Virus record (IMG/VR): IMGVR_UViG_3300025941_000108
Coordinates: 1-21,673 of that record
Direction: 5' to 3' (one strand)
Length of the DNA stretch: 21,673 bases
Source of the DNA: a virus
The notes beneath the pieces are model-generated. The model saw nothing but the letters and a program-made list of their open reading frames with translations. It did no database searches and was not told where the DNA came from. The position numbers and the translations under genes are program-made. Positions 172 through 20,826 of this stretch are shown here, piece by piece (position 1 is the first letter of the stretch; each line of letters opens with the position of its first letter).

Positions 172-585
172 TCAGAACGGCACCCGGTAGCGCGCCATAA
201 AGTTCCCCGACCCCGATCCCCTACCCATCGGCATCGCGTACCCGCCCGACAGGTCGATCGGCAGTCCCGGTACGCTGTATTGCAGTTGCAGGTTTAGCGG
301 CTCGCTGGTTTTCCCGGCTCGTCCGCCCATCGAGTAGCCGCCGCCCGTCAACTCGAGCGGCCAGTCGGCCGGAGACGGCACAGGCATCAAGTTCAGCGGC
401 GTATTCGGCTGGTTAAGCCGTCCCGATGACCCTCCGGCAAGGTCAAACAAATTAGCCGGAGGAGCCCCTCGCGCACCAGGTTCCGTCCCCGCCAGATACC
501 GCCGCAGATAGTCACCTTGGTCTTCCGGCCGGTAGGCCGGCTGGCCCGCCAATAGTTGCTGCAACAAAGACAGCGCGTCAGCCAT
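172..585 (-). CDS. Hypothetical phage structural-region protein, 137 aa
   Basis: The product is a 137-residue Gly/Pro/Leu-rich protein. It has a short helical start (MADALSLLQQLLAGQ) followed by a low-complexity region that repeats Leu-Asn-Leu and Gly-Gly-Tyr phrases (PLNLMPVP, PLNLQLQYSVPG, LTGGGYSMGG, LSGGYAMPMG). No signal peptide, membrane segment or catalytic motif is visible. Its ATG shares one base with the portal stop codon (TGATG), so it is probably translated by coupling to the portal. Such proteins next to the portal are often minor virion or scaffold components, but this one I do not recognise. The Gly-rich beta-like repeats could form an extended surface or linker. Confidence 0.7.
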   Translation of the reverse strand: MADALSLLQQLLAGQPAYRPEDQGDYLRRYLAGTEPGARGAPPANLFDLAGGSSGRLNQPNTPLNLMPVPSPADWPLELTGGGYSMGGRAGKTSEPLNLQLQYSVPGLPIDLSGGYAMPMGRGSGSGNFMARYRVPF

Positions 586-3053
586 CAGGCGCTGCCGCCG
601 CCGTTCGGCTCCAGCGGTCGGATGCCCTGCCCGGCGGCATAGGCCCCGGCAGCGTATTTGAGCCGCACCTCCTGCAGCCGCACCTCGTTCTGTGCCTCCA
701 TCTGCGCCCGCGCGATCAAGATGTCGTTGGCACTTTTCTGCCGCTCCAGTTCCATCTCGTGGGCTAAGCGGCGCTCCTCCAGCATCAATTCGTGCTGCAG
801 TTTCTGCTGCGCCAGCCCCGCCTCCGCTTGGGCCTGCTGCTGCTGTAATTGGGCCTCCAATTGGGCCTTCTGTTGGCTCTGCTGAGCTTCGGCCTGGGCT
901 TTGAGCTGAAGGGCTTGGATGGCGGCCTGCGCTTTGATCATCGCCGGGTCAGGCTTTTGTGGGCCTCCCGGCGGCGGCGAACCCGGCGGCGGCGGCATGC
1001 TCGGGTCGCTGAAGAAGCTGGTCTTGAACCCGGCATTGGTCGTCAGCTCGTGCAGTGCCGCGTAAACATCCTTGGCGTAGACCAAGGGGCCGGTCACGCC
1101 GCCCTGCTGCTGCACGATCGTCCCCTGGATCTGGATCACCTGCATCAGGTGGGCGAGCACCTGATCGCGATTGCCGGTGCCGAGCCCGACACTGACCGTC
1201 ACCGGCATCTCGTCACGCCACTCGCGCGGGTCGACCGTTAGATAGCCGCCGGTGACCCGGATGATCCGCTCCTGCTGCTGGTTTTTGCGCACCAACTCCA
1301 TGACACCGCGCATCAATTTTTCGACGCCGTGCGCGAAGATCCGGGCAAACAATTCGATACGCTGACCGGCGGCCTGTTGCAGCATCGCGATCGAGCTGGC
1401 CGCCGTATTGTTCAGCGCGTCGGCGGTGATCATGCTGCCCTCGCGCGCCACGCCGGTGCGCAGTTCGGCCGTCGTGTCGAGGTACTGCACCAGCGGAAAC
1501 GTCTTGTCCGCGGTGTAGGGGATCATCATCGGCGAGATACCGCCGAGCCGCTTTGTCCTGACGATGCCGCCGGGGCGCAGGGTTAAGAGATCGTCGTAAG
1601 TGTTTTCGTTGACGCTGTCGTCGCCGACTTCGATACGCGGCCAGTTGGAGAGGTACGCATTATCGAGCATCTGCCGCATGATGACCGATTTGACGTACTG
1701 CAGATCCATCACCAGGTCCGCCAGGCTCATCCCGACCAACCGGTGGCTCATCGGGATCGGCGTGACGCTGACAAACGGCGCCTCGTCAACGCAGTCGATA
1801 CACGGCTCGCCATCGCGGGTCAGGATGACCCGACCGTTGCCGGCCGTCATCACCTTGTAGAGCTCGGTGGTCCGGCCAGCCTTGCCGTCGCGGCTGAGCT
1901 GGACGTAATTCTCTTCGATCCAGAGATGCTCGCCGGCGTCGGTGCGCTCGTATTGCGGCGTATCGTCGTCGAGCCGGTGGCGCTCTACCCGCTCCTGGTT
2001 CCAGTCCAGGCTCTCGTTGGCCGGGATATCCTCCAAAGAGGCCTCGTCGTAGCCCTGCTGGATCAAATCGCTGCGGGTCCAGCGGCGGCGGTGGCACAGG
2101 TAGGGAATATCGTCGCGCTTTGCCCGCCGACTGAACAGGATCTCTTCCGGCGGCACGTTTTCGATAACCGCCCGGCCGTGTTCGCGAGTAATCCTGAGAG
2201 TAACATCGATCAGCTCGACCGGAGGAGGCGATGGCGGCGACATTGACAGCGGAACAGCGCCTGGAGGCGGCGGAAGGGGCATTCCACGCGGCGGCGATGA
2301 TGCTGCTGAACCTGGAAAGCGTGCCGCAGAAATGGCGGAACCGTTTATACCCGGCGCAGTTGGAGTTAGCCCATAATTCGCTAACGGCGGCACGGGAGGC
2401 CCTAGAGGCGGCATGGGAGGAAGTAGAGGCGGAGGAGGCGGCACCTGCGGCCGATCCATGTTGAACTCGTCAGCGTCCTGGGCGTAACGCCGGATTTTCA
2501 CCACCTCGACATCCGCGTCCTGGCCCAACAGCGCGTCGTATTGCTCCTGGGTCAGCCCGGTATAAGTCTTGCTTTCGACAGTTTTCTGGGTGTTCCACCA
2601 ATACTTTACCCAGCCTACCTTTTCCAGGAGCGCATCGAACAGCCAGTCATGGAGGATCATAAAGCCGGGGTTGTCGCGGTGAAAAATATGATTGAGGTAC
2701 TCGCTTGCCTGGGCGGCGCGCGCCTCCAGCCCCGGCCGCGGCGGATCGACGATGCAAATCTGATCCGAGGCGGTAAAAATCCGCAAGAGTGCCGGCAAGG
2801 CCCACTCGACAGCCTCCAGGACCGTCTTGAAGACAAGCTGACTGCGGCCCTCGACCTCGTTGCCTAAGGGCTCTCCGGCAAAGTATTTCTGCGCCTGCAG
2901 CCGCTCCTGCGCTAGGCTCCCGCCATCCTGCCCGAGCGCCGCTTGCAATTCCTGCTGGACGACCTGTTTTACTTCGTCTTCGTCCAGCCCGTCAGGCAGG
3001 TCGAGCCCTTGCGCGACGGGCTGCTGGTAGTCGGTGCCGAAATTGCCGATCAT
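585..3053 (-). CDS. Portal protein (head-tail connector) with proline-rich insert
   Basis: The 822-residue product fits large podovirus-type portal proteins, which form the dodecameric ring at the capsid vertex through which DNA enters. The N-terminal part (about 30-190) has the acidic helical start and the EWALPALLRIF and DPPRPG-like stretches, and the core resumes with ENVPPEEILFSRRAK. The last about 125 residues are a Gln/Ala/Glu-rich coiled coil. Residues about 203-278 are an almost pure Pro/Ser/Ala/Gly insert that interrupts the conserved core. Its codons end in A or T about half the time by hand count, unlike the flanks. The same stretch holds a convincing ORF on the other strand (2231-2464). 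I chose ATG 3053, which has AAGAAGG seven bases upstream and overlaps the previous stop (TGATG); a TTG lies one codon earlier. Confidence 0.88.
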   Translation of the reverse strand: MIGNFGTDYQQPVAQGLDLPDGLDEDEVKQVVQQELQAALGQDGGSLAQERLQAQKYFAGEPLGNEVEGRSQLVFKTVLEAVEWALPALLRIFTASDQICIVDPPRPGLEARAAQASEYLNHIFHRDNPGFMILHDWLFDALLEKVGWVKYWWNTQKTVESKTYTGLTQEQYDALLGQDADVEVVKIRRYAQDADEFNMDRPQVPPPPPLLPPMPPLGPPVPPLANYGLTPTAPGINGSAISAARFPGSAASSPPRGMPLPPPPGAVPLSMSPPSPPPVELIDVTLRITREHGRAVIENVPPEEILFSRRAKRDDIPYLCHRRRWTRSDLIQQGYDEASLEDIPANESLDWNQERVERHRLDDDTPQYERTDAGEHLWIEENYVQLSRDGKAGRTTELYKVMTAGNGRVILTRDGEPCIDCVDEAPFVSVTPIPMSHRLVGMSLADLVMDLQYVKSVIMRQMLDNAYLSNWPRIEVGDDSVNENTYDDLLTLRPGGIVRTKRLGGISPMMIPYTADKTFPLVQYLDTTAELRTGVAREGSMITADALNNTAASSIAMLQQAAGQRIELFARIFAHGVEKLMRGVMELVRKNQQQERIIRVTGGYLTVDPREWRDEMPVTVSVGLGTGNRDQVLAHLMQVIQIQGTIVQQQGGVTGPLVYAKDVYAALHELTTNAGFKTSFFSDPSMPPPPGSPPPGGPQKPDPAMIKAQAAIQALQLKAQAEAQQSQQKAQLEAQLQQQQAQAEAGLAQQKLQHELMLEERRLAHEMELERQKSANDILIARAQMEAQNEVRLQEVRLKYAAGAYAAGQGIRPLEPNGGGSA
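2231..2464 (+). CDS. Candidate antisense gene nested in the portal gene, 77 aa
   Basis: This plus-strand ORF lies wholly inside the minus-strand portal gene. It starts at an ATG preceded by GGAGGAGG at near-ideal spacing. The product (start MAATLTAEQRLEAAEG, end EEVEAEEAAPAADPC) is a balanced, mostly helical sequence with Trp, Tyr, Phe and charged residues, and looks like a real protein rather than a shadow. By hand count about 23 of its 77 codons end in A/T, against about half of the portal codons over the same stretch, where the portal reads as proline-rich low complexity. The borders of ORF and portal insert agree within about 20 bases. I infer overprinting: a small gene inserted antisense while the portal frame stayed open. 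No family is recognised. A chance ORF opposite a GC-rich low-complexity segment is the alternative. Confidence 0.45.
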   Translation: MAATLTAEQRLEAAEGAFHAAAMMLLNLESVPQKWRNRLYPAQLELAHNSLTAAREALEAAWEEVEAEEAAPAADPC

Positions 3054-3578: not shown

Positions 3579-4895
3579 TTATACGATACCAAGTTGCGGA
3601 TAGCGGATCGCCTTCGGCCGCCCGGCCGGGGTCTCGTACGCCACCGCCATGAGCCCCGCAGCGTCGGCCGAATGAGACGCCCAATCATGCTCGGGTCCCA
3701 GTCCAACGTCCCGCACGTCTTCGCTGCGGCGTTCGTGATACCAACCCAAAGCATCGCGCCCCGCCTCGGTCGTGTCGGCATTAAACCAGAGGCTCGGAAA
3801 CAACCGCCGCAGCGCTTCGATACGCGCCCGCGCTGCGCCGCGACCCTGGTTGGGGATCACCTCCACATTGAACCCGGCCGCCCGAAAAGCACTCTCAAAC
3901 GACACGTCATAGACCCGGTCATGGGTCGCGCCGTCATGGGGGAGAAAAATCTGCGCCTTGCCCCAACCGCGCTCGCGCAGCCAATCGACATGCACGCCAA
4001 GGCTCTGCCCGACCGCCTCGTAGTAATCGAGCACCCGCACCTCGCGACCGACAAACTGGCAAACCCACATCGCGAACGCATCGCTGCGGGCGCCCGTGCC
4101 GCCCAAATCGCAATACGCCCGCACCGCCAGCAGCGGGTCCTTTGTGACCCGGCCGATGCGGCCCTCTTGGCTCGCATCCGACAGAAATTTAGCGTAGTAG
4201 GCGCCGGCGTGGGCGATTGCATACTCGCCCTCCCAGATGTGCGGGTACTGCTCCGGCCGCTTCGCCTCGTCCTCGCGGCGGATCTGATCGAGGGTCGACG
4301 GGAACCAGGCGTTGTCGCGCCAGTTCAGTTCGACAATCTTGCTGTTTTCCGGCGGGTTGACGCGAAATCGCTGGTTGGTGGCGCTGGCGCGCCGCTCGGG
4401 GTTCCAGGTCACCCAGATTTCCGCATTCTCCTCGCGGACCGTGGGTATCGCCTTCTGCCACGCCATCTCCGATACCGGCTCGGCCTCGTCGACCCACAGA
4501 AGGCGTATCCTGGCGGTCGATTTGACGCTCTCGATGTTTCTTCTAAGGCCGACAAAAGAGAAATCGATCCGCCCGTCGCGGGTCCGAATGAATTTCTCGC
4601 CGATCTCGTAGTTAGCGGCCAGCCACGGCTCGGTCTCGATCGCCTGCTTGACCTCCGCCATGCTGCTTTCGTCGAGGCTGTTCTGGAACTCGCGGCCGCA
4701 GACAATAACCCCGCTTTCCTTCGCCAGGGCGCAGCGCAACCCGTGCACCGCCGCCATCTTGGCAAAGGATCTGCTCTTTGCGCTACCGCGACCGCCGTAT
4801 GCCCCACGATACAACGCCTCGCCACTGAACACCGGGATCAGTTTCTCCGGCAGTTCGATCCGCCCCGCGGTCATATTACGCTCACGGACAGACAT
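3579..4895 (-). CDS. terL: Terminase large subunit (packaging ATPase-nuclease)
   Basis: This 438-residue protein pumps DNA into the procapsid and cuts it. The N-terminal ATPase shows a P-loop GGRGSAKS (34-41), Walker B with catalytic Glu LLWVDEAE (132-139) and a WVTWNPE coupling-type motif (161-167). The C-terminal RNase H-like nuclease has Asp in YCDLGGTG (about 263), a following acidic strand (VLDYY, about 288-292) and HDWASHSADA near 403-412. The P-loop style and length fit the PBSX/Terminase_3 group. ATG 4895 overlaps the preceding gene by 14 bases; an internal ATG at codon 8 is an alternative start. Three exported-type genes separate it from terS, which is an unusual arrangement. Confidence 0.95.
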   Translation of the reverse strand: MSVRERNMTAGRIELPEKLIPVFSGEALYRGAYGGRGSAKSRSFAKMAAVHGLRCALAKESGVIVCGREFQNSLDESSMAEVKQAIETEPWLAANYEIGEKFIRTRDGRIDFSFVGLRRNIESVKSTARIRLLWVDEAEPVSEMAWQKAIPTVREENAEIWVTWNPERRASATNQRFRVNPPENSKIVELNWRDNAWFPSTLDQIRREDEAKRPEQYPHIWEGEYAIAHAGAYYAKFLSDASQEGRIGRVTKDPLLAVRAYCDLGGTGARSDAFAMWVCQFVGREVRVLDYYEAVGQSLGVHVDWLRERGWGKAQIFLPHDGATHDRVYDVSFESAFRAAGFNVEVIPNQGRGAARARIEALRRLFPSLWFNADTTEAGRDALGWYHERRSEDVRDVGLGPEHDWASHSADAAGLMAVAYETPAGRPKAIRYPQLGIV

Positions 4896-5709
4896 TCACC
4901 ACGCCGGCGTTATTCCACAGCGTGCCGGGCGCCGCCCCGGAACAAGACCCCAGCATTACCGGCAGGACAATCCCGGCCGCCTTCACCGTGCCATCGCGCG
5001 ACACCGCGAAATACTCCGGCGATCCCGGTGTCCCCACCCAAATCGCCCGGTCGTTCGGCGCCGTCCCGATCGCCGCCGCCTTGATGCACAGCCCGCAGTG
5101 CAACCGCGCCGCCGAACCGGCCGCCTCGCCAAAATAAATGCCTCCCGTCACGTTCTGCGTGCCGGCCGGCATCAAGTGCATGATGTATTTCGATGTCGTC
5201 GTGTCGTGGTTGGGCTGATCCAACGCTGCAAAGTTCTCCAGTGACATCTCGGCCGCCAGCGCGTACCCGTCCGACCCAGCGTCCACCCGGCCGCTGGAAA
5301 ATAACCCCCAGGCCCGACCCTGCATGTTCGGCGTCATGACCCTGCCCCGCGTGTCCAACCCTACCATGTCAAGGTTCCGCGCCCCGGACGAGGGATCGCG
5401 CGTGTATGTCTGGATCAACAGCCCAGCCCGCTCATACCCCGGCCCCGTCGTCGTCGTCGTCTCCGCACCACCCTGGATGTTTAGGATAAACCGATTGCCG
5501 CCAGCCCCTGTCGGGTCTTCCAGATTGGCATTGTACCCGCTGTAACTACTGCCCCAGGCGCCCGGATCCGGCAGGATAGAGCCCGGCGGTATCGACTTGA
5601 TGCCCGACACTACCGGGTTCGTCACATTCGACATATTCTGGTACATGTCAGCCACAGCGATAGTGCTGACCAGCGCCAGCACCGTCGCAGCAGGAAAAAC
5701 CCGGCGCAT
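4882..5709 (-). CDS. Exported hypothetical protein, 275 aa
   Basis: The N-terminus is a typical signal peptide: MRRVFP, then a hydrophobic stretch ATVLALVSTIAVA with a likely cleavage after AVA. The mature part is Gly/Thr/Asn-rich and beta-like (GGNRFILNIQGGAETTTTTGPGYERAG, DMVGLDTRGRVMTPNMQGR) and resembles tail-fibre or receptor-binding segments. Four cysteines lie near the C-terminus, two of them in HCGLC. The start is the ATG at 5709, overlapping the previous stop (TGATG). The phrase VGTPGSPEYFAVSRDGTVKAAG resembles the repeated ends of phage tail proteins. A signal peptide on a gene between terS and terL is odd. It may be a secreted moron or an outer-surface protein. No family is firmly recognised. 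Confidence 0.75.
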   Translation of the reverse strand: MRRVFPAATVLALVSTIAVADMYQNMSNVTNPVVSGIKSIPPGSILPDPGAWGSSYSGYNANLEDPTGAGGNRFILNIQGGAETTTTTGPGYERAGLLIQTYTRDPSSGARNLDMVGLDTRGRVMTPNMQGRAWGLFSSGRVDAGSDGYALAAEMSLENFAALDQPNHDTTTSKYIMHLMPAGTQNVTGGIYFGEAAGSAARLHCGLCIKAAAIGTAPNDRAIWVGTPGSPEYFAVSRDGTVKAAGIVLPVMLGSCSGAAPGTLWNNAGVVNVCP

Positions 5710-13691: not shown

Positions 13692-13926
13692 GTTTAACAG
13701 CCCGGCGCAGATGGTCGGGTCCGCCGACGCGACCGTGCAGATTTTCGCCACTCAAGAAGTTCTGCCGTGGACGTGTGGTAGCGACGGCACGCTTCTTCGA
13801 TGCTGATGTCTCTGCAGTCGATGGCCAAGAGGACTTCCGTTTTTCGTTTCTGCGTCCAGCGTTTGATGTCGGCCGGTGGGGTGGGTCTTTGGATCATGCG
13901 TTGACGGCCCGGCGCAGATGATCGGG
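13690..13926. repeat. Two copies of the integrase 3' end flanking the DUF1153 gene
   Basis: 13690-13719 and 13898-13926 align with one gap and about four mismatches and share an exact 14-bp core, GCCCGGCGCAGATG. Read in the integrase frame, the downstream copy gives PDHLRRAVKRLA, and the real gene ends PDHLRRAVNA. The longer version looks more like a usual integrase C-terminus. This suggests the DUF1153 gene was inserted at the integrase end and left the old end behind. Confidence 0.75.
13694..13897 (-). CDS. DUF1153 / SciP-like regulator, 67 aa
   Basis: Residues 1-52 match the DUF1153 family: PTPPADIKRWTQKRKTEVLL, then ISIEEACRRYHTSTAELLEW. In Caulobacter the family member SciP binds DNA and blocks activation by the master cell-cycle regulator CtrA, and the family is alphaproteobacterial. 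A phage copy could adjust host cell-cycle promoters or act as a phage repressor; which one is not shown. The ATG overlaps the integrase stop (ATGA). The last about 15 residues (RSRRRTRPSAPGC) do not fit the family. They are an out-of-frame reading of a second copy of the integrase 3' end (see repeat at 13690), so the C-terminus is probably acquired. Confidence 0.85.
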   Translation of the reverse strand: MIQRPTPPADIKRWTQKRKTEVLLAIDCRDISIEEACRRYHTSTAELLEWRKSARSRRRTRPSAPGC

Positions 13927-14991
13927 CGACAGGTGCAGATAGTTCGCCTCGATCGTCGCCATCGTGTCACCCATGACCTGCGCGATGTCGTACAAGGGCA
14001 CCCCCCGCATCGCCTTGAGCGAGCCCCAGGTGTGCCGCAAGACATGCGGCGTCACCCACGGCGTCGAGGTCGTGCGGGCAAACCGGGCGAAGGCATCGCC
14101 GATATGGTTGACCCCGATGACCCGGCCCCAAGGATGCCCTGCGGCGTCCTTGGGAGCCCGTAGCCACGCCTCTTTCAAGATGGGCATCAATCTATCGCTG
14201 ATCGGCAAACCCTGCACCCTGCGCTTCTTGGTGAGCCTCCTGCCCGGTACCTGGTAGTTGATGGTCCCGCGGCCCAAATCCACCCGGTCCCAGGTGAGGT
14301 CGAGGATCGCCTGCCGTCGCGCCGCGGTCTCCAGCCCCAAACACGCGAACAGCATCACCCGGTGAGCGGCTTCGCGGTCCGCTCGCCGCGTCCAGCGGCC
14401 GGCCTCGCCCCAGGCCACGGCGGCGTCCCAAAAGGTTTTCTCCTGTGCCTCGTCGAGGAACTTTGCGCGCGGCGGTCCCGGCGGCGGCAAGATCCGCTTA
14501 AAGCTTGGCACCTCGTCGCGGCTGATCTGACGTGTGTCGGCGGCCCATATGAGTACCGTCCGCAACGCCCCCAACTCGCGCCGGATGGTCCCGGCACTGC
14601 GCTGTCGCACCCTCGCATAGTCCTGCAGGACGATGCCGTCGATCTGCCTCGCGGTGTAGTGCCCCAGCTCGGTCCTGACCGCGGCCAGCACATACCGGCC
14701 TACCCGGGCCTTGCCCTGCACCTCGACAAACTGCAGCCAGCCGCGGGCCAACTCGTCGACCGTTGGCGCCCGTGCCACCGCTACGGTAGCTTGCCCCCGG
14801 GCGTCGGCGCAGAAGCTGTCGAGATAAGCCTCAGCCTGCGCGCGGTCCTTTGTCTTCGTGCTCTCGCGCCGGGTGAGGTAGCCATTGCCGGTGGCGTCGG
14901 TCCACCAGACTTCCCAATAGCCTTGTTTGTTGGTCCTAAGCCGGATCTTACGGTAGGTGCCGATGTCCGGACGGTTTGGGTTCGCAACCAT
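13894..14991 (-). CDS. int: Tyrosine-recombinase integrase, 365 aa
   Basis: This protein would integrate and excise the phage DNA. The catalytic domain (about 175-360) shows Arg I in ETAARRQAILDLTW (about 225), a Lys-containing beta-hairpin (LTKKRRVQGLPIS), the box II motif HVLRHTWGSL (His 316, Arg 319, Trp 322) and the nucleophile Tyr 351 in TIEANYLHLS. The N-terminal about 75 residues have a basic arm-binding look, followed by a SAM-like core-binding domain. It overlaps the excisionase-like frame by 211 bases and the DUF1153 gene by an ATGA. The C-terminus is short compared with the duplicated end copy downstream. No attachment core was identified. Confidence 0.93.
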   Translation of the reverse strand: MVANPNRPDIGTYRKIRLRTNKQGYWEVWWTDATGNGYLTRRESTKTKDRAQAEAYLDSFCADARGQATVAVARAPTVDELARGWLQFVEVQGKARVGRYVLAAVRTELGHYTARQIDGIVLQDYARVRQRSAGTIRRELGALRTVLIWAADTRQISRDEVPSFKRILPPPGPPRAKFLDEAQEKTFWDAAVAWGEAGRWTRRADREAAHRVMLFACLGLETAARRQAILDLTWDRVDLGRGTINYQVPGRRLTKKRRVQGLPISDRLMPILKEAWLRAPKDAAGHPWGRVIGVNHIGDAFARFARTTSTPWVTPHVLRHTWGSLKAMRGVPLYDIAQVMGDTMATIEANYLHLSPDHLRRAVNA

Positions 14992-16852: not shown

Positions 16853-16903
16853 CCCCTGTTAACCAAAGAACCCCAAGCTCCTAACAGCTTGTGGGGACAG
16901 GGG
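16853..16903 (+). promoter_or_regulatory. Leader RNA structure sequestering the helicase RBS
   Basis: CCCCTGT (16853-16859) pairs with ACAGGGG (16897-16903). Nested inside, CCCCAAGCT (16871-16879) pairs with AGCTTG-T-GGGG (16886-16896), with one bulged base and a six-base loop. The outer right arm contains the ribosome-binding site AGGGG of the SNF2 gene (ATG at 16910). When folded, the site is hidden, so translation may depend on a ligand, protein or the passing ribosome. Confidence 0.5.
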
Positions 16904-16909
16904 ATTTTC

Positions 16910-18322
16910 ATGCCCGCGGCTGCCACACCACCGCTCCGGGACTACCAAACAAAAGGCATCGACTGGATCTGCCAGCAACTGCAGATCAACCGGGCGGTCT
17001 TGGTGGCCGACGAGATGGGGCTCGGCAAAAGCTTGGAAGCCCTCGCCGCGGCCGAAGCCTGTGGCGCCGACCGGGTTTTGATCGTTTGTCCCGCCACAGC
17101 CCGGCGGGTCTGGCAGGCCGAGATCCAGCGCTGGCTAGGGGGCTGGTCCTCGCGCGTCGTCCTGATGGAACCCGGGACCAAAATCACCGATATCAAACTT
17201 TGCCTCGACCGGCCGCAGTTTGTCCTGATCGTCGGCTATGACGAGTTCTCCGACCGACAGAGCCAACTGGCCAACCATCTGCGCTCCCGGCGGCTTGATC
17301 TCTTGATCCTCGACGAGGCGCACTATCTGAAAAACCCGTCGAACCGCACGCTGGCGCTTTATGGTCATCGCGGTTCCGGCACCGGGGTCCAGGCCAGCGC
17401 CGCCCGGGTCATCTTACTGACCGGCACCCCGACCCCCAATCACGCCGGCGAGTTGTGGCAGCACTACCGGACCTTTTGGCCTGACCTCCTAAAAGCCCAC
17501 ACCGGGCGGGCCTTGAGCCAGGTCGAGTTCGAGGACCGGTTCACCCGCTACCGGGACACCCCGTTTGGGCGCCAGGTGACCGGCAGCAAAAACCAGACGA
17601 TCTTGCGGCACAGCCTCAAGGGCGTGGTGCTGCGCCGCCGCAAGATCGAGGTCCTGTACGAACTGCCACCGTTAATCCTGCAGGACATCCCGTTGCCGGC
17701 GCCGGGCCAGTGGCTCGACCGGATCTCGGCGCCGGTGCGCAGCGCCGCGGCAAAGCTGGCCTATTCCGGCCGCTACATGACCGACGACGAGTTGTTAAAG
17801 ACCTTGCGCAATCCCGATGCGGCGCTCGCCACGGTGCGGCGCGAACTGGGATTGTTAAAGACCAGCCCTACGATCCTTTGGGTTCAGGAACGGCTGGCAT
17901 CAACCGAAAAGATGGTGCTGTTCGCCTGGCACCACGACGTGATCGAGCAATTGCGGCGCGGTCTTCTGGAGTTCGATCCCGTCGTGGTGACGGGCGAGAG
18001 TTCGCCTAATGCCCGGGCGCTGGCGGTCGAGGACTTTCAGACTAGGGCCGGGACCAGGCTCTTTATCGGCCAGATCCTCGCCGCCGGGACCGCGATCACC
18101 CTGACCGCGGCAAACGAGGTGGCGATCGTCGAGCCTTCCTGGGTCCCCGGCGAGAACGTCCAGGCGATCGCCCGCGCCCACCGGCTAGGCCAGCGCGACA
18201 GCGTCCTGGCGAGCTTTCTTTTCCTGCCCGGCACCCTCGACGAACAGATCATCCGGGTGTTCCGCCGCAAGGCCGATGAAATCAGCATCCTGCAAGGAGA
18301 TACCCATGCAAGCGCAGCTTAA
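16910..18322 (+). CDS. SNF2-family DNA helicase / translocase, 470 aa
   Basis: An SF2 ATPase that moves on double-stranded DNA and remodels forks or branched DNA. Motifs in order: Q-like LRDYQTKGIDW (9-19), Walker A ADEMGLGKS (33-41), DEAH box LDEAHYLKN (134-142), TGTP (171-174), then the C-terminal RecA lobe with motif VI RAHRLGQR near 421-428. At 470 residues it is compact and lacks accessory domains, as in phage SNF2 proteins. I start at ATG 16910 (AGGGGA six bases upstream) rather than the TTG at 16889. A structured leader may control it. It overlaps the next gene by 17 bases. Confidence 0.92.
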   Translation: MPAAATPPLRDYQTKGIDWICQQLQINRAVLVADEMGLGKSLEALAAAEACGADRVLIVCPATARRVWQAEIQRWLGGWSSRVVLMEPGTKITDIKLCLDRPQFVLIVGYDEFSDRQSQLANHLRSRRLDLLILDEAHYLKNPSNRTLALYGHRGSGTGVQASAARVILLTGTPTPNHAGELWQHYRTFWPDLLKAHTGRALSQVEFEDRFTRYRDTPFGRQVTGSKNQTILRHSLKGVVLRRRKIEVLYELPPLILQDIPLPAPGQWLDRISAPVRSAAAKLAYSGRYMTDDELLKTLRNPDAALATVRRELGLLKTSPTILWVQERLASTEKMVLFAWHHDVIEQLRRGLLEFDPVVVTGESSPNARALAVEDFQTRAGTRLFIGQILAAGTAITLTAANEVAIVEPSWVPGENVQAIARAHRLGQRDSVLASFLFLPGTLDEQIIRVFRRKADEISILQGDTHASAA

Positions 18323-18878
18323 TTTTACCTTCGATCTCGGGTCTCCTGCAGGACGAGCCGAGTTCCGCCGGATGTTCCGGCACCTGTTGACGTCAAATAA
18401 CAACGACGAGATGTTGTTGGACGATCGGCAGGGTATGCCGATCGCGCCGGACCTGGAGCCGGGGCCGGAGCCGGCTAAGGTCAACCCCTCGTCGATCCCG
18501 TCTGATCCTGCTCGGGCCGAGGCCGCCTTGGCCGGGCGGCAGGCCGCCGCGGCCAAGGCGCGCGCCGCCAAGGCTGCCAAAGCGGTGCCCGGTAATGGCG
18601 CGGCCGAGGACCTCGGGGACCAGCTGGTCGGGGACGAGCCCGACGCCGACACCGACGACATGGGTCTCGCCGATCCCTCGATGTCACCTGGCGAAGCCAA
18701 GGAGGCTGGTCTCGCCCTGGTGCGCCAGATGTATGCCGCCGGCAAGGTGGCGGAAGTGAAGCTTTTGCAGAAGCAATACGGCGTCGCGAAGTTCTACGAC
18801 GTGCCGCTGGAGAAGGGGCACCAATTCTACCGCGAAGTTCTGGCGATCTCTCACAAGGTGATGGGCGCCCAGGCGTGA
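18306..18878 (+). CDS. Hypothetical replication-operon protein, 190 aa
   Basis: AAGGAG lies eight bases before ATG 18306, inside the end of the helicase gene. The N-terminal about 40 residues are ordered (MQAQLNFTFDLG, RAEFRRMFRHLL). The middle (about 50-130) is low-complexity Ala/Lys/Pro/Asp. The C-terminal about 50 residues form a conserved-looking helix bundle (LALVRQMYAAGKVAEVKLLQ, YGVAKFYDVPLEKGHQFYREVL). Similar ends occur in phage proteins near ssDNA-binding or recombination genes, so it may be a recombination or replication accessory. That is inference. Its stop overlaps the next GTG. Confidence 0.75.
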   Translation: MQAQLNFTFDLGSPAGRAEFRRMFRHLLTSNNNDEMLLDDRQGMPIAPDLEPGPEPAKVNPSSIPSDPARAEAALAGRQAAAAKARAAKAAKAVPGNGAAEDLGDQLVGDEPDADTDDMGLADPSMSPGEAKEAGLALVRQMYAAGKVAEVKLLQKQYGVAKFYDVPLEKGHQFYREVLAISHKVMGAQA

Positions 18879-19609
18879 TCCACGTCGTGGCTCTTTCCGG
18901 CGGCAAGGACAGCTCGGCTATGGCCCTGCGCCTGCGCGAGCTGCACCCGAACATCGACTACACCTACGTCTGCACCCCGACCGGGGACGAGCTGCCGGAG
19001 ATGTTCGCGCATTGGCGCAAGCTCTCCGAGCTGCTGGGAAAGCCTCTGGTCCCGATCATGCGCAAAGGGGGTTTGCAGGGTTTGGTTCACGAGGAAGACG
19101 CGATCCCCAACTGGCGCATGCGGTTTTGCACCCGGATGTTGAAAATCGAGCCCTATGCCTCTTGGCTGATCCAGCAGCAGACGCAGCACGACGAAATTAT
19201 CTCTTATGTCGGTTTACGCTTTGACGAACCCGACCGCGAGGGCGGCGACTATGCCAATGTGCCGGGAGTGCGATCGGCCTTCCCATTGCGCGAGTGGCAG
19301 TGGGGGCTGTCCGAGGTGCGGGAGTATCTGCGGTCTCGCGGTGTCGAGATCCCGCTACGCACCGATTGCGCCCGATGCTTTTTTCAGCGGCTGACCGAGT
19401 GGTATCAGCTGTGGCTCGATCACCGGGACATCTTTGATGATGCCGCCGTGCAGGAAGCCGTCTATGGCGCCACTTGGCGTAGCCCTGGCCGCGATAGCTG
19501 GCCGGCGGCTTTAGCCGAGCTGGGTGCCGAGTTCGAGACCGGCCGGCAGCCCAAGCCGCGCAAAGACGATCCCCTAAAAGCTCTGCAATGCCGGGTGTGC
19601 CGCACATGA
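18875..19609 (+). CDS. PAPS-reductase-like PP-loop protein, 244 aa
   Basis: The start VVALSGGKDSSAMALRL contains the PP-loop SGGKDS (8-13) that binds ATP or PAPS in the adenine-nucleotide alpha-hydrolase superfamily. WRMRFCTRMLKIEP (Cys 85) and PLREWQWGLSEVREYLRSRG are typical of phage PAPS-reductase-like proteins. Extra Cys pairs TDCARCFF (165/168) and CRVC (239/242) could hold zinc or an iron-sulfur cluster. True sulfate reduction is unlikely in this operon. Nucleic-acid modification (for example sulfur transfer, as in DndC) is possible but unproven. The start is GTG 18875, overlapping the previous stop as GTGA; the end overlaps the DUF2800 gene as ATGA. Confidence 0.85.
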   Translation: MIHVVALSGGKDSSAMALRLRELHPNIDYTYVCTPTGDELPEMFAHWRKLSELLGKPLVPIMRKGGLQGLVHEEDAIPNWRMRFCTRMLKIEPYASWLIQQQTQHDEIISYVGLRFDEPDREGGDYANVPGVRSAFPLREWQWGLSEVREYLRSRGVEIPLRTDCARCFFQRLTEWYQLWLDHRDIFDDAAVQEAVYGATWRSPGRDSWPAALAELGAEFETGRQPKPRKDDPLKALQCRVCRT

Positions 19610-20826
19610 CCGAGCACAGCCTTCTCGGGGCGTCGAGCGCCTATCGCTGGCTCAGCTGCCCGGGATCCTTCCGGTTGTCACAGACCGCGCCGCATCGACC
19701 GTCGTCGATCTATGCCGCGACCGGGACCCTGGCGCACGAGTACATCGAGAACGCGGTGACAAGCGGGGTCGAAATCGTCCTGCCCTCCGAGTTGGGTCGG
19801 GTGTGGTCCCGGGACGGGCACCTCATCACTGTCGATCAGGCATTTATCGACGGTATTCACGTCATGCTGGACTATTTTTATGAAGCCTGCGGTCGCGGTC
19901 CGGAGCCGAGACCTGATGCTGACTGGCGTGATGTCGAGTTTCGGGTCGATCTCGACAGCTACTTTCCCGGACGCCCCCCGGTCCCTGTGTTCGGCACAGT
20001 CGATGCCGGGATTGTGTCCGGTGAAATCCTGGAGGTCGTCGATTACAAGAACGGGTCCGGCATTACTGTCTCCGCGGTCGAGAACCCGCAGTTGATGTTC
20101 TATGGCGCCGGGGTCTTGGGCGCTTTGCCGGCAGCCCAGCGCGATCAGGTAAAGACGGTAAAACTCACCATTGTGCAGCCGCACGCCTCGGGTGTTTCCC
20201 CGATCCGATCCTGGGAAATCGATGTAGTCGACCTCTTGATGTGGGTCGACGAGGTGCTGGTCCCGGGGGTCGAAGCCTGCGCTCAGCCGGATGCGCCTCT
20301 GGTCCCGGGGTCCTGGTGTAGATTTTGTCCGGTATCGCACGCCTGTCCCAAGCTGATGGCCGACGCCCTGGAGATGGCCAAGGCCGAGTTCGACGACGAC
20401 CTCAACCTCGATCCCGACAACGCGCTGCCCGCGGTAGACGAACTGGCCAAAGCCCTCGACACCGCCGAGCGGGCCGAGTTGTGGATCGCCCGGATCCGCG
20501 AGTTCGCGATCGACCAGCTGCAGCACCAGGTGCGTATCCCGGGCTGGGGTCTGGTCCCGACCAAAGCCACCCGCAAGTGGCTCGCCCCTGACACCGACAT
20601 CGCGCATCGCCTCTCCGACCTCGGCGCCAGCCACGACGAGATCTGGGAAACCCGGGTTCGCTCCCCGGCCCAGATCGAGCGGCAACTCCACCGCACCCGC
20701 AAGGGGCGCCTGATCTGGGACCAGGCCGCGACGACGATGGTCGAGGCTCGGTCCTCGGGGCTCAAGCTCGGCCGCGACGATACCACCGACGCCCTGGAGG
20801 AGTTCGATGACGACGCTGCAGGATGA
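19606..20826 (+). CDS. DUF2800 Cas4-like PD-(D/E)XK nuclease, 406 aa
   Basis: This matches phage DUF2800 proteins, exonuclease-like relatives of Cas4/RecB. The nuclease fold shows GTLAHEYIE (His 44), GTVDAGIV (Asp 133), VVDYKNG (Asp 146, Lys 148) and NPQLMFYG (Gln 162). A four-cysteine set, SCPGS (Cys 18) with WCRFCPVSHACP (Cys 238, 241, 247), fits a 4Fe-4S cluster as in Cas4/AddB. It probably resects DNA ends for recombination together with the DUF2815 ssDNA-binding protein downstream, a pairing known in many phages. The ATG at 19606 overlaps the previous stop; the end overlaps the 66-aa gene by 20 bases. Confidence 0.9.
   Translation: MTEHSLLGASSAYRWLSCPGSFRLSQTAPHRPSSIYAATGTLAHEYIENAVTSGVEIVLPSELGRVWSRDGHLITVDQAFIDGIHVMLDYFYEACGRGPEPRPDADWRDVEFRVDLDSYFPGRPPVPVFGTVDAGIVSGEILEVVDYKNGSGITVSAVENPQLMFYGAGVLGALPAAQRDQVKTVKLTIVQPHASGVSPIRSWEIDVVDLLMWVDEVLVPGVEACAQPDAPLVPGSWCRFCPVSHACPKLMADALEMAKAEFDDDLNLDPDNALPAVDELAKALDTAERAELWIARIREFAIDQLQHQVRIPGWGLVPTKATRKWLAPDTDIAHRLSDLGASHDEIWETRVRSPAQIERQLHRTRKGRLIWDQAATTMVEARSSGLKLGRDDTTDALEEFDDDAAG

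Follow-up and report, generated by a model that had tools for sequence, protein, structure and literature searches.

RESULTS

An open reading frame antisense to a portal gene

The window, by which we mean the whole stretch of viral DNA analysed here (21,673 nt, positions 1–21,673 of IMG/VR record IMGVR_UViG_3300025941_000108), carries on its minus strand, at 585..3053, a gene for an SU10-type portal protein of 822 amino acids from the ATG (823 with an upstream TTG), identified by Pfam (SU10_portal, PF23899, E=1e-175), PHROG (portal, E=2e-139) and structure matches. Embedded wholly within this gene, on the opposite strand, is a complete ORF for 77 amino acids (2231..2464, plus strand), as the first-pass annotation had proposed. 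It runs from an ATG at 2231..2233 to a TGA at 2462..2464, and is preceded by the Shine-Dalgarno (SD)-like sequence GGAGGAGG at 2221..2228; an AGG-rich motif likewise precedes the start in most relatives. Again as first described, the two ends of the ORF fall within about 20 bases of the ends of a proline-rich, hypervariable insert in the portal protein (residues 203–278; 2220..2447, minus strand), and the stop is made by conserved portal codons (F-N-M) directly outside the insert. The structure model of the portal is poor (pLDDT 37) and was used solely for the two predicted beta strands that flank the insert, at residues 183–192 and 279–287. The insert is missing from the solved homologues (9nwm, 7sxk, and 7z44) and is short or absent in outgroup portals, although proline linkers do exist among them.

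Elsewhere in the portal, a second proline-rich stretch (residues ~684–700) is followed by a long predicted Gln/Ala-rich helix at residues 703–801 (window ~650–1005). Another open frame, of 496 codons, lies antisense to the terminase gene (3594–5084, plus strand); such long frames are common opposite GC-rich genes. Profile matches identified an integrase-type gene (13894–14991), an SNF2-type helicase (16889–18322), a PAPS-reductase-like gene (18875–19609), and a DUF2800 nuclease-like gene (19588–20826), and by this gene content the phage is of temperate type. No prophage with such a portal turned up in two scans of bacterial genomes.

Evidence from the single allele

Portal codon position 1 lies opposite ORF position 1, portal position 2 opposite ORF position 3, and portal position 3 opposite ORF position 2. 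The codon counts given in the first-pass annotation are right, with 23/77 plus-strand codons ending in A or T and, for the window's allele, a portal GC3 of 0.47 inside the insert vs 0.82 elsewhere, but they are a weak cue, since ORF position 3 is set by the base at portal position 2, and Pro/Ala/Ser codons therefore yield G/C endings automatically. The near-consensus ribosome-binding site is likewise present, but GGAGG is CCTCC reversed, and the SD match alone is therefore no evidence. The openness of the ORF had a probability of 0.0025–0.017 under portal codon usage, and of 0.11 when synonyms were permuted inside the insert. The openness of the window's single allele is thus non-decisive, and the strong evidence is comparative; openness, G/C-ending codons, and SD match were all dropped as proof, because proline DNA yields the three of them free. 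They are equally what would be expected if the frame were a by-product of a portal sequence rich in proline and in GC, its SD motif and Ala/Glu helices being nothing but CCTCC and CCN reversed: this phase makes few stops as well as G/C endings automatic in such DNA, and single alleles are frequently open by chance.

Relatives and variability of the insert

Relatives were gathered by scanning viral contigs with several portals of the same group, which gave a pooled set of 57 distinct insert regions, plus three near-identical copies (L128–130) of one further allele that was fetched later. The ORF clade was defined by the portal motif F(N/T/G)(M/L)DR(P/A) ahead of the insert and not by openness, although the ORF had already been seen in several members before this definition was made. 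Inserts are ~45 to 107 codons long in the ORF clade and 4 to 88 codons, mostly proline-rich, in the outgroups, and cannot be aligned even where the portals are ~90% identical outside them. Three alleles (L064, L071, and L074) have identical amino acids in the portal flanks and strongly different inserts, a pattern that suggests very fast change or an exchange of alleles limited to the insert. In one 46.5-kb contig (L014, 5541–6151), a single indel in the proline insert, perhaps an assembly error, disrupts both the portal and the antisense frame, and this allele was left out of the stop counts.

Conservation of the open frame

Variable proline inserts with no conserved plus-strand ORF, which the first-pass annotation had held to speak against a gene, were looked for, and the opposite was found: the antisense frame is stop-free through the insert in 32/32 in-frame clade alleles (~20 distinct), and L128–130 are open in the same frame. 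Over the 20 distinct alleles and their 1,696 codons, no stop was observed in the ORF frame, against 21.6 expected when synonymous portal codons were permuted within each insert (minimum of 9 in 1,000 trials), 27.1 when the portal was recoded with its own codon usage, and 25.9 with the pooled codon usage of the inserts (minimum of 11), so the frame is open beyond chance given the protein that it overlaps. The joint probability of all 20 alleles being open under permutation is 10^-11.8 with alleles treated as independent, a value that their relatedness makes too small; for eight mutually very different alleles (L001, L004, L034, L036, L053, L073, L087, and L089), the product of the single-allele values is ~2e-7. 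Across the rest of the portal, stops in this same frame are at the level expected from portal codon usage. The other antisense frames of the inserts exceed the portal-usage expectation (54 vs 21.4 and 16 vs 6.9), and in the analysis with within-insert nulls they have 54 stops observed vs 54 expected (frame 0) and 18 vs 11.7 (frame 1). Outgroup inserts had 10 stops in the ORF frame vs 15.7 or 13.1 expected, a lean toward few stops that the by-product explanation would predict, but a depletion not comparable to that of the clade.

Codon choice in the insert

Mean portal GC3 drops to 0.56 in inserts that carry the ORF, and only in these, the outgroup inserts having 0.80. Of the proline codons, CCA and CCT together account for 48% in ORF-bearing inserts, for 22% in those of the outgroups, and for 8% in the portal body. 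The share of GGC among glycine codons falls from 57% to 12% in ORF-bearing inserts. The portal codons avoided are the C-ending ones, which put a G at ORF position 2 (Gly, Arg, Trp, or stop), and this matches the need of an Ala/Glu/Leu/Val-rich ORF. The earlier suggestion that the portal tolerates the complement of a plus-strand gene fits this confined drop, while its other half, that the insert exists for the sake of that gene, is less secure: the linker may well predate the ORF, because outgroups carry proline linkers without it, and purifying selection on the residues of the ORF is not significant. The reverse order of events, in which the portal acquired a small plus-strand gene by insertion and came to read its complement as a proline loop, is a question of origin compatible with a real ORF and agrees with a codon choice in the insert that tracks the plus frame and not that of the portal. 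We consider it improbable, since outgroup linkers without the ORF occupy the same place, on a tree whose root is not fixed, and a search for a stand-alone homologue found none.

Start and stop signals

Seventeen alleles have a portal with the motif x-(L/F)-P-P-P, and in 17/17 the residue ahead of Leu/Phe is encoded by xCA, which on the plus strand gives ATG or GTG at one aligned position, downstream of AGGCGG(Y)A or a near match to it. In the window, the ATG lies one codon nearer to the SD-like motif than the A/GTG of these 17 alleles, and none of the outgroups has an A/GTG at the aligned position. An SD-like motif and a fixed A/GTG thus accompany the ORF in most alleles; these initiation signals are weaker in the FNLDRPY subclade, in which most members (L067, L090, L092, L101–L103, and L111) lack the fixed start. 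Three alleles (L091, L093, and L094) have no stop near the border, so that the ORF runs beyond the insert, and in the remaining ones a stop follows immediately beyond it.

A search for sigma-70-like sites found no such promoter on the plus strand near the ORF, and fourfold-site conservation gave no clear promoter signal adjoining the start. The portal's highest fourfold-site conservation (0.85 and 0.80 in two bins, against a mean of 0.54) lies at 1901–2033 (portal codons 341–385), ~200–330 bases upstream of the ORF on the plus strand, and could reflect either a regulatory element or sampling.

Predicted product

AlphaFold, run with a 22-row alignment, predicted a hairpin of two helices (residues 7–29 and 33–70) with a pLDDT of 86.8 and a pTM of 0.67, in line with the protein-like helical product first described. 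The products of the clade are Ala-rich and mainly acidic, with some basic exceptions. Helix-forming character was assessed against permutations of synonymous codons that left the portal protein and its codon pool unchanged. Under this null, the amphipathic-helix moment of the ORF frame had z = +1.6 ± 0.2 in the clade and +0.2 in the outgroups, and the helix cost had z = -2.9 ± 0.2 and -1.3, respectively; in the clade's other antisense frames the moment was +0.8 (frame 0) and +0.1 (frame 1), and the helix cost was not lowered. Tandem repeats in L053 and L069 may inflate the moment; L004, L071, L074, L087, and L092 are positive and have no obvious repeats. A leave-group-out profile ranked the real product first among 301 in 7/17 alleles and among the top 18 in five more; the other five alleles (L004, L034, L036, L053, and L069) did not score.

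The explanation of the ORF as a by-product of portal codons is, in light of these results, quite unlikely: the same protein with the same codon pool gives 21.6 stops where none is seen, the GC3 shift is confined to ORF-bearing inserts, the helix signal is tied to the frame and to the order of synonymous codons, and the position of the start is fixed in most alleles.

A profile search of related contigs matched the ORF only at the portal locus, and the search of the 77-residue product against phage proteins, advised in the first-pass annotation, yielded no convincing relative in Pfam, PHROGs, PADLOC, phage records, or the PDB. A fold search with the hairpin model returned only generic helical matches, none with E < 0.001. 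Pfam matches of single products (e.g., HTH_31, E=0.00095, in 1/22 members) were treated as chance.

Selection on single residues

The comparison of synonymous and non-synonymous change in both frames, likewise advised earlier, gave for the ORF an overlap-aware dNN/dNS of 0.88 (bootstrap 0.67–1.06), which is not significantly below 1; in the same frame, the portal body has a ratio of 1.55 and the outgroup inserts have one of 1.0. Changes synonymous in the portal accumulate more slowly within inserts (0.19 overall) than in the portal body (0.28), a difference seen in 6/7 pairs, L071/L074 being the exception. Neither this overlap-corrected ratio nor substitution counts by codon position were decisive. 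Where inserts can be aligned, the matching pieces usually show higher identity in the portal frame than in the ORF frame, but proline composition inflates portal identity, and this comparison was set aside as uninformative. By these measures, constraint on individual residues is weak, and conservation resides in the frame, in its two ends, and in the type of protein encoded.

Weak conservation of residues is what would be expected if stops were excluded from the frame for some purpose unconnected with its protein, as has been argued for ambigrammatic narnaviruses (PMC8155312); the passage of ribosomes on an antisense RNA or an RNA or DNA element would be examples. We regard such a non-coding open frame as very improbable, given the order-dependent amphipathic-helix signal, the hairpin-like profile common to many alleles, and the presence of an SD motif, a start, and a local stop. 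Moreover, the narnaviruses for which it was put forward are RNA viruses, whereas this is a dsDNA phage in which the stop-free frame differs from the codon-aligned one, which has 54 stops.

DISCUSSION

The alleles compared here show that this clade of phages has retained the frame, its boundaries, its start context, and its helix-forming character despite a fast turnover of sequence, and the plus-strand ORF is very probably a genuine coding gene, overprinted on the strand opposite the portal's proline-rich loop. Both phages and bacteria are known to have antisense overlaps (PMC7017920, PMC7457138, PMC9927249), and a survey of dsDNA viruses found them annotated in many tailed phages, e.g., in 21/347 Podoviridae, although it counts annotations and not selection (PMC7017920). 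A close likeness is to laoB, asa, and pop of E. coli O157:H7, antisense embedded overlapping genes with expression data (PMC5810103, PMC6294744, PMC7103648), which are also short coding ORFs antisense inside a longer gene and for one of which, laoB, an origin by overprinting has been proposed. Unlike these, the portal ORF is known from sequence comparison alone, in ~20 divergent alleles, and overlaps a gene for a phage structural protein. A de novo origin antisense to another viral gene has likewise been proposed for HIV-1 asp and further antisense genes of retroviruses (PMC8156140, PMC8622228), but these are retroviral and differ in sequence, host, and mechanism of expression. Ambigrammatic narnaviruses also keep a reverse frame open, but in an RNA virus and in a frame argued to encode no functional protein (PMC8155312). 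In the papers searched, no gene lying opposite a portal gene, and so none backed by many divergent alleles, had been described.

We envisage that the ORF was born de novo, by overprinting of a pre-existing proline linker, since antisense to CCN is GNG (Ala, Glu, Val, or Gly) and CCTCC gives GGAGG: a growing proline loop would supply on the other strand both a ribosome-binding site and an Ala/Glu-rich, stop-poor frame. Translation would take place from an antisense transcript, and expression could therefore differ in time or level from that of the late portal mRNA; given the integrase-type gene in the window, expression in the lysogenic state is possible. The product would be a soluble helical hairpin of ~65–108 residues, probably acting by binding another protein. 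An accessory protein that interacts with the host or with its defences is perhaps its most likely role, a tentative proposal suggested by rapid divergence alone. More speculative is the idea that proline-rich loops of phage virion proteins are nurseries for antisense genes, here giving rise to fast-diversifying helical-hairpin effectors whose type is kept while their sequence is not, as might happen in an arms race with the defences of the host.

Claims of embedded antisense genes usually rest on a single genome and are disputed, whereas here ~20 divergent alleles together with outgroup controls make a clean statistical case. If confirmed, this would be an unusually well supported example of two proteins encoded on opposite strands of one piece of DNA. 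The route of gene birth that it suggests, from a proline loop to an antisense SD motif and a helical frame, may be searched for in other genomes, and the class of genes to which it points is one that annotation software discards by rule.
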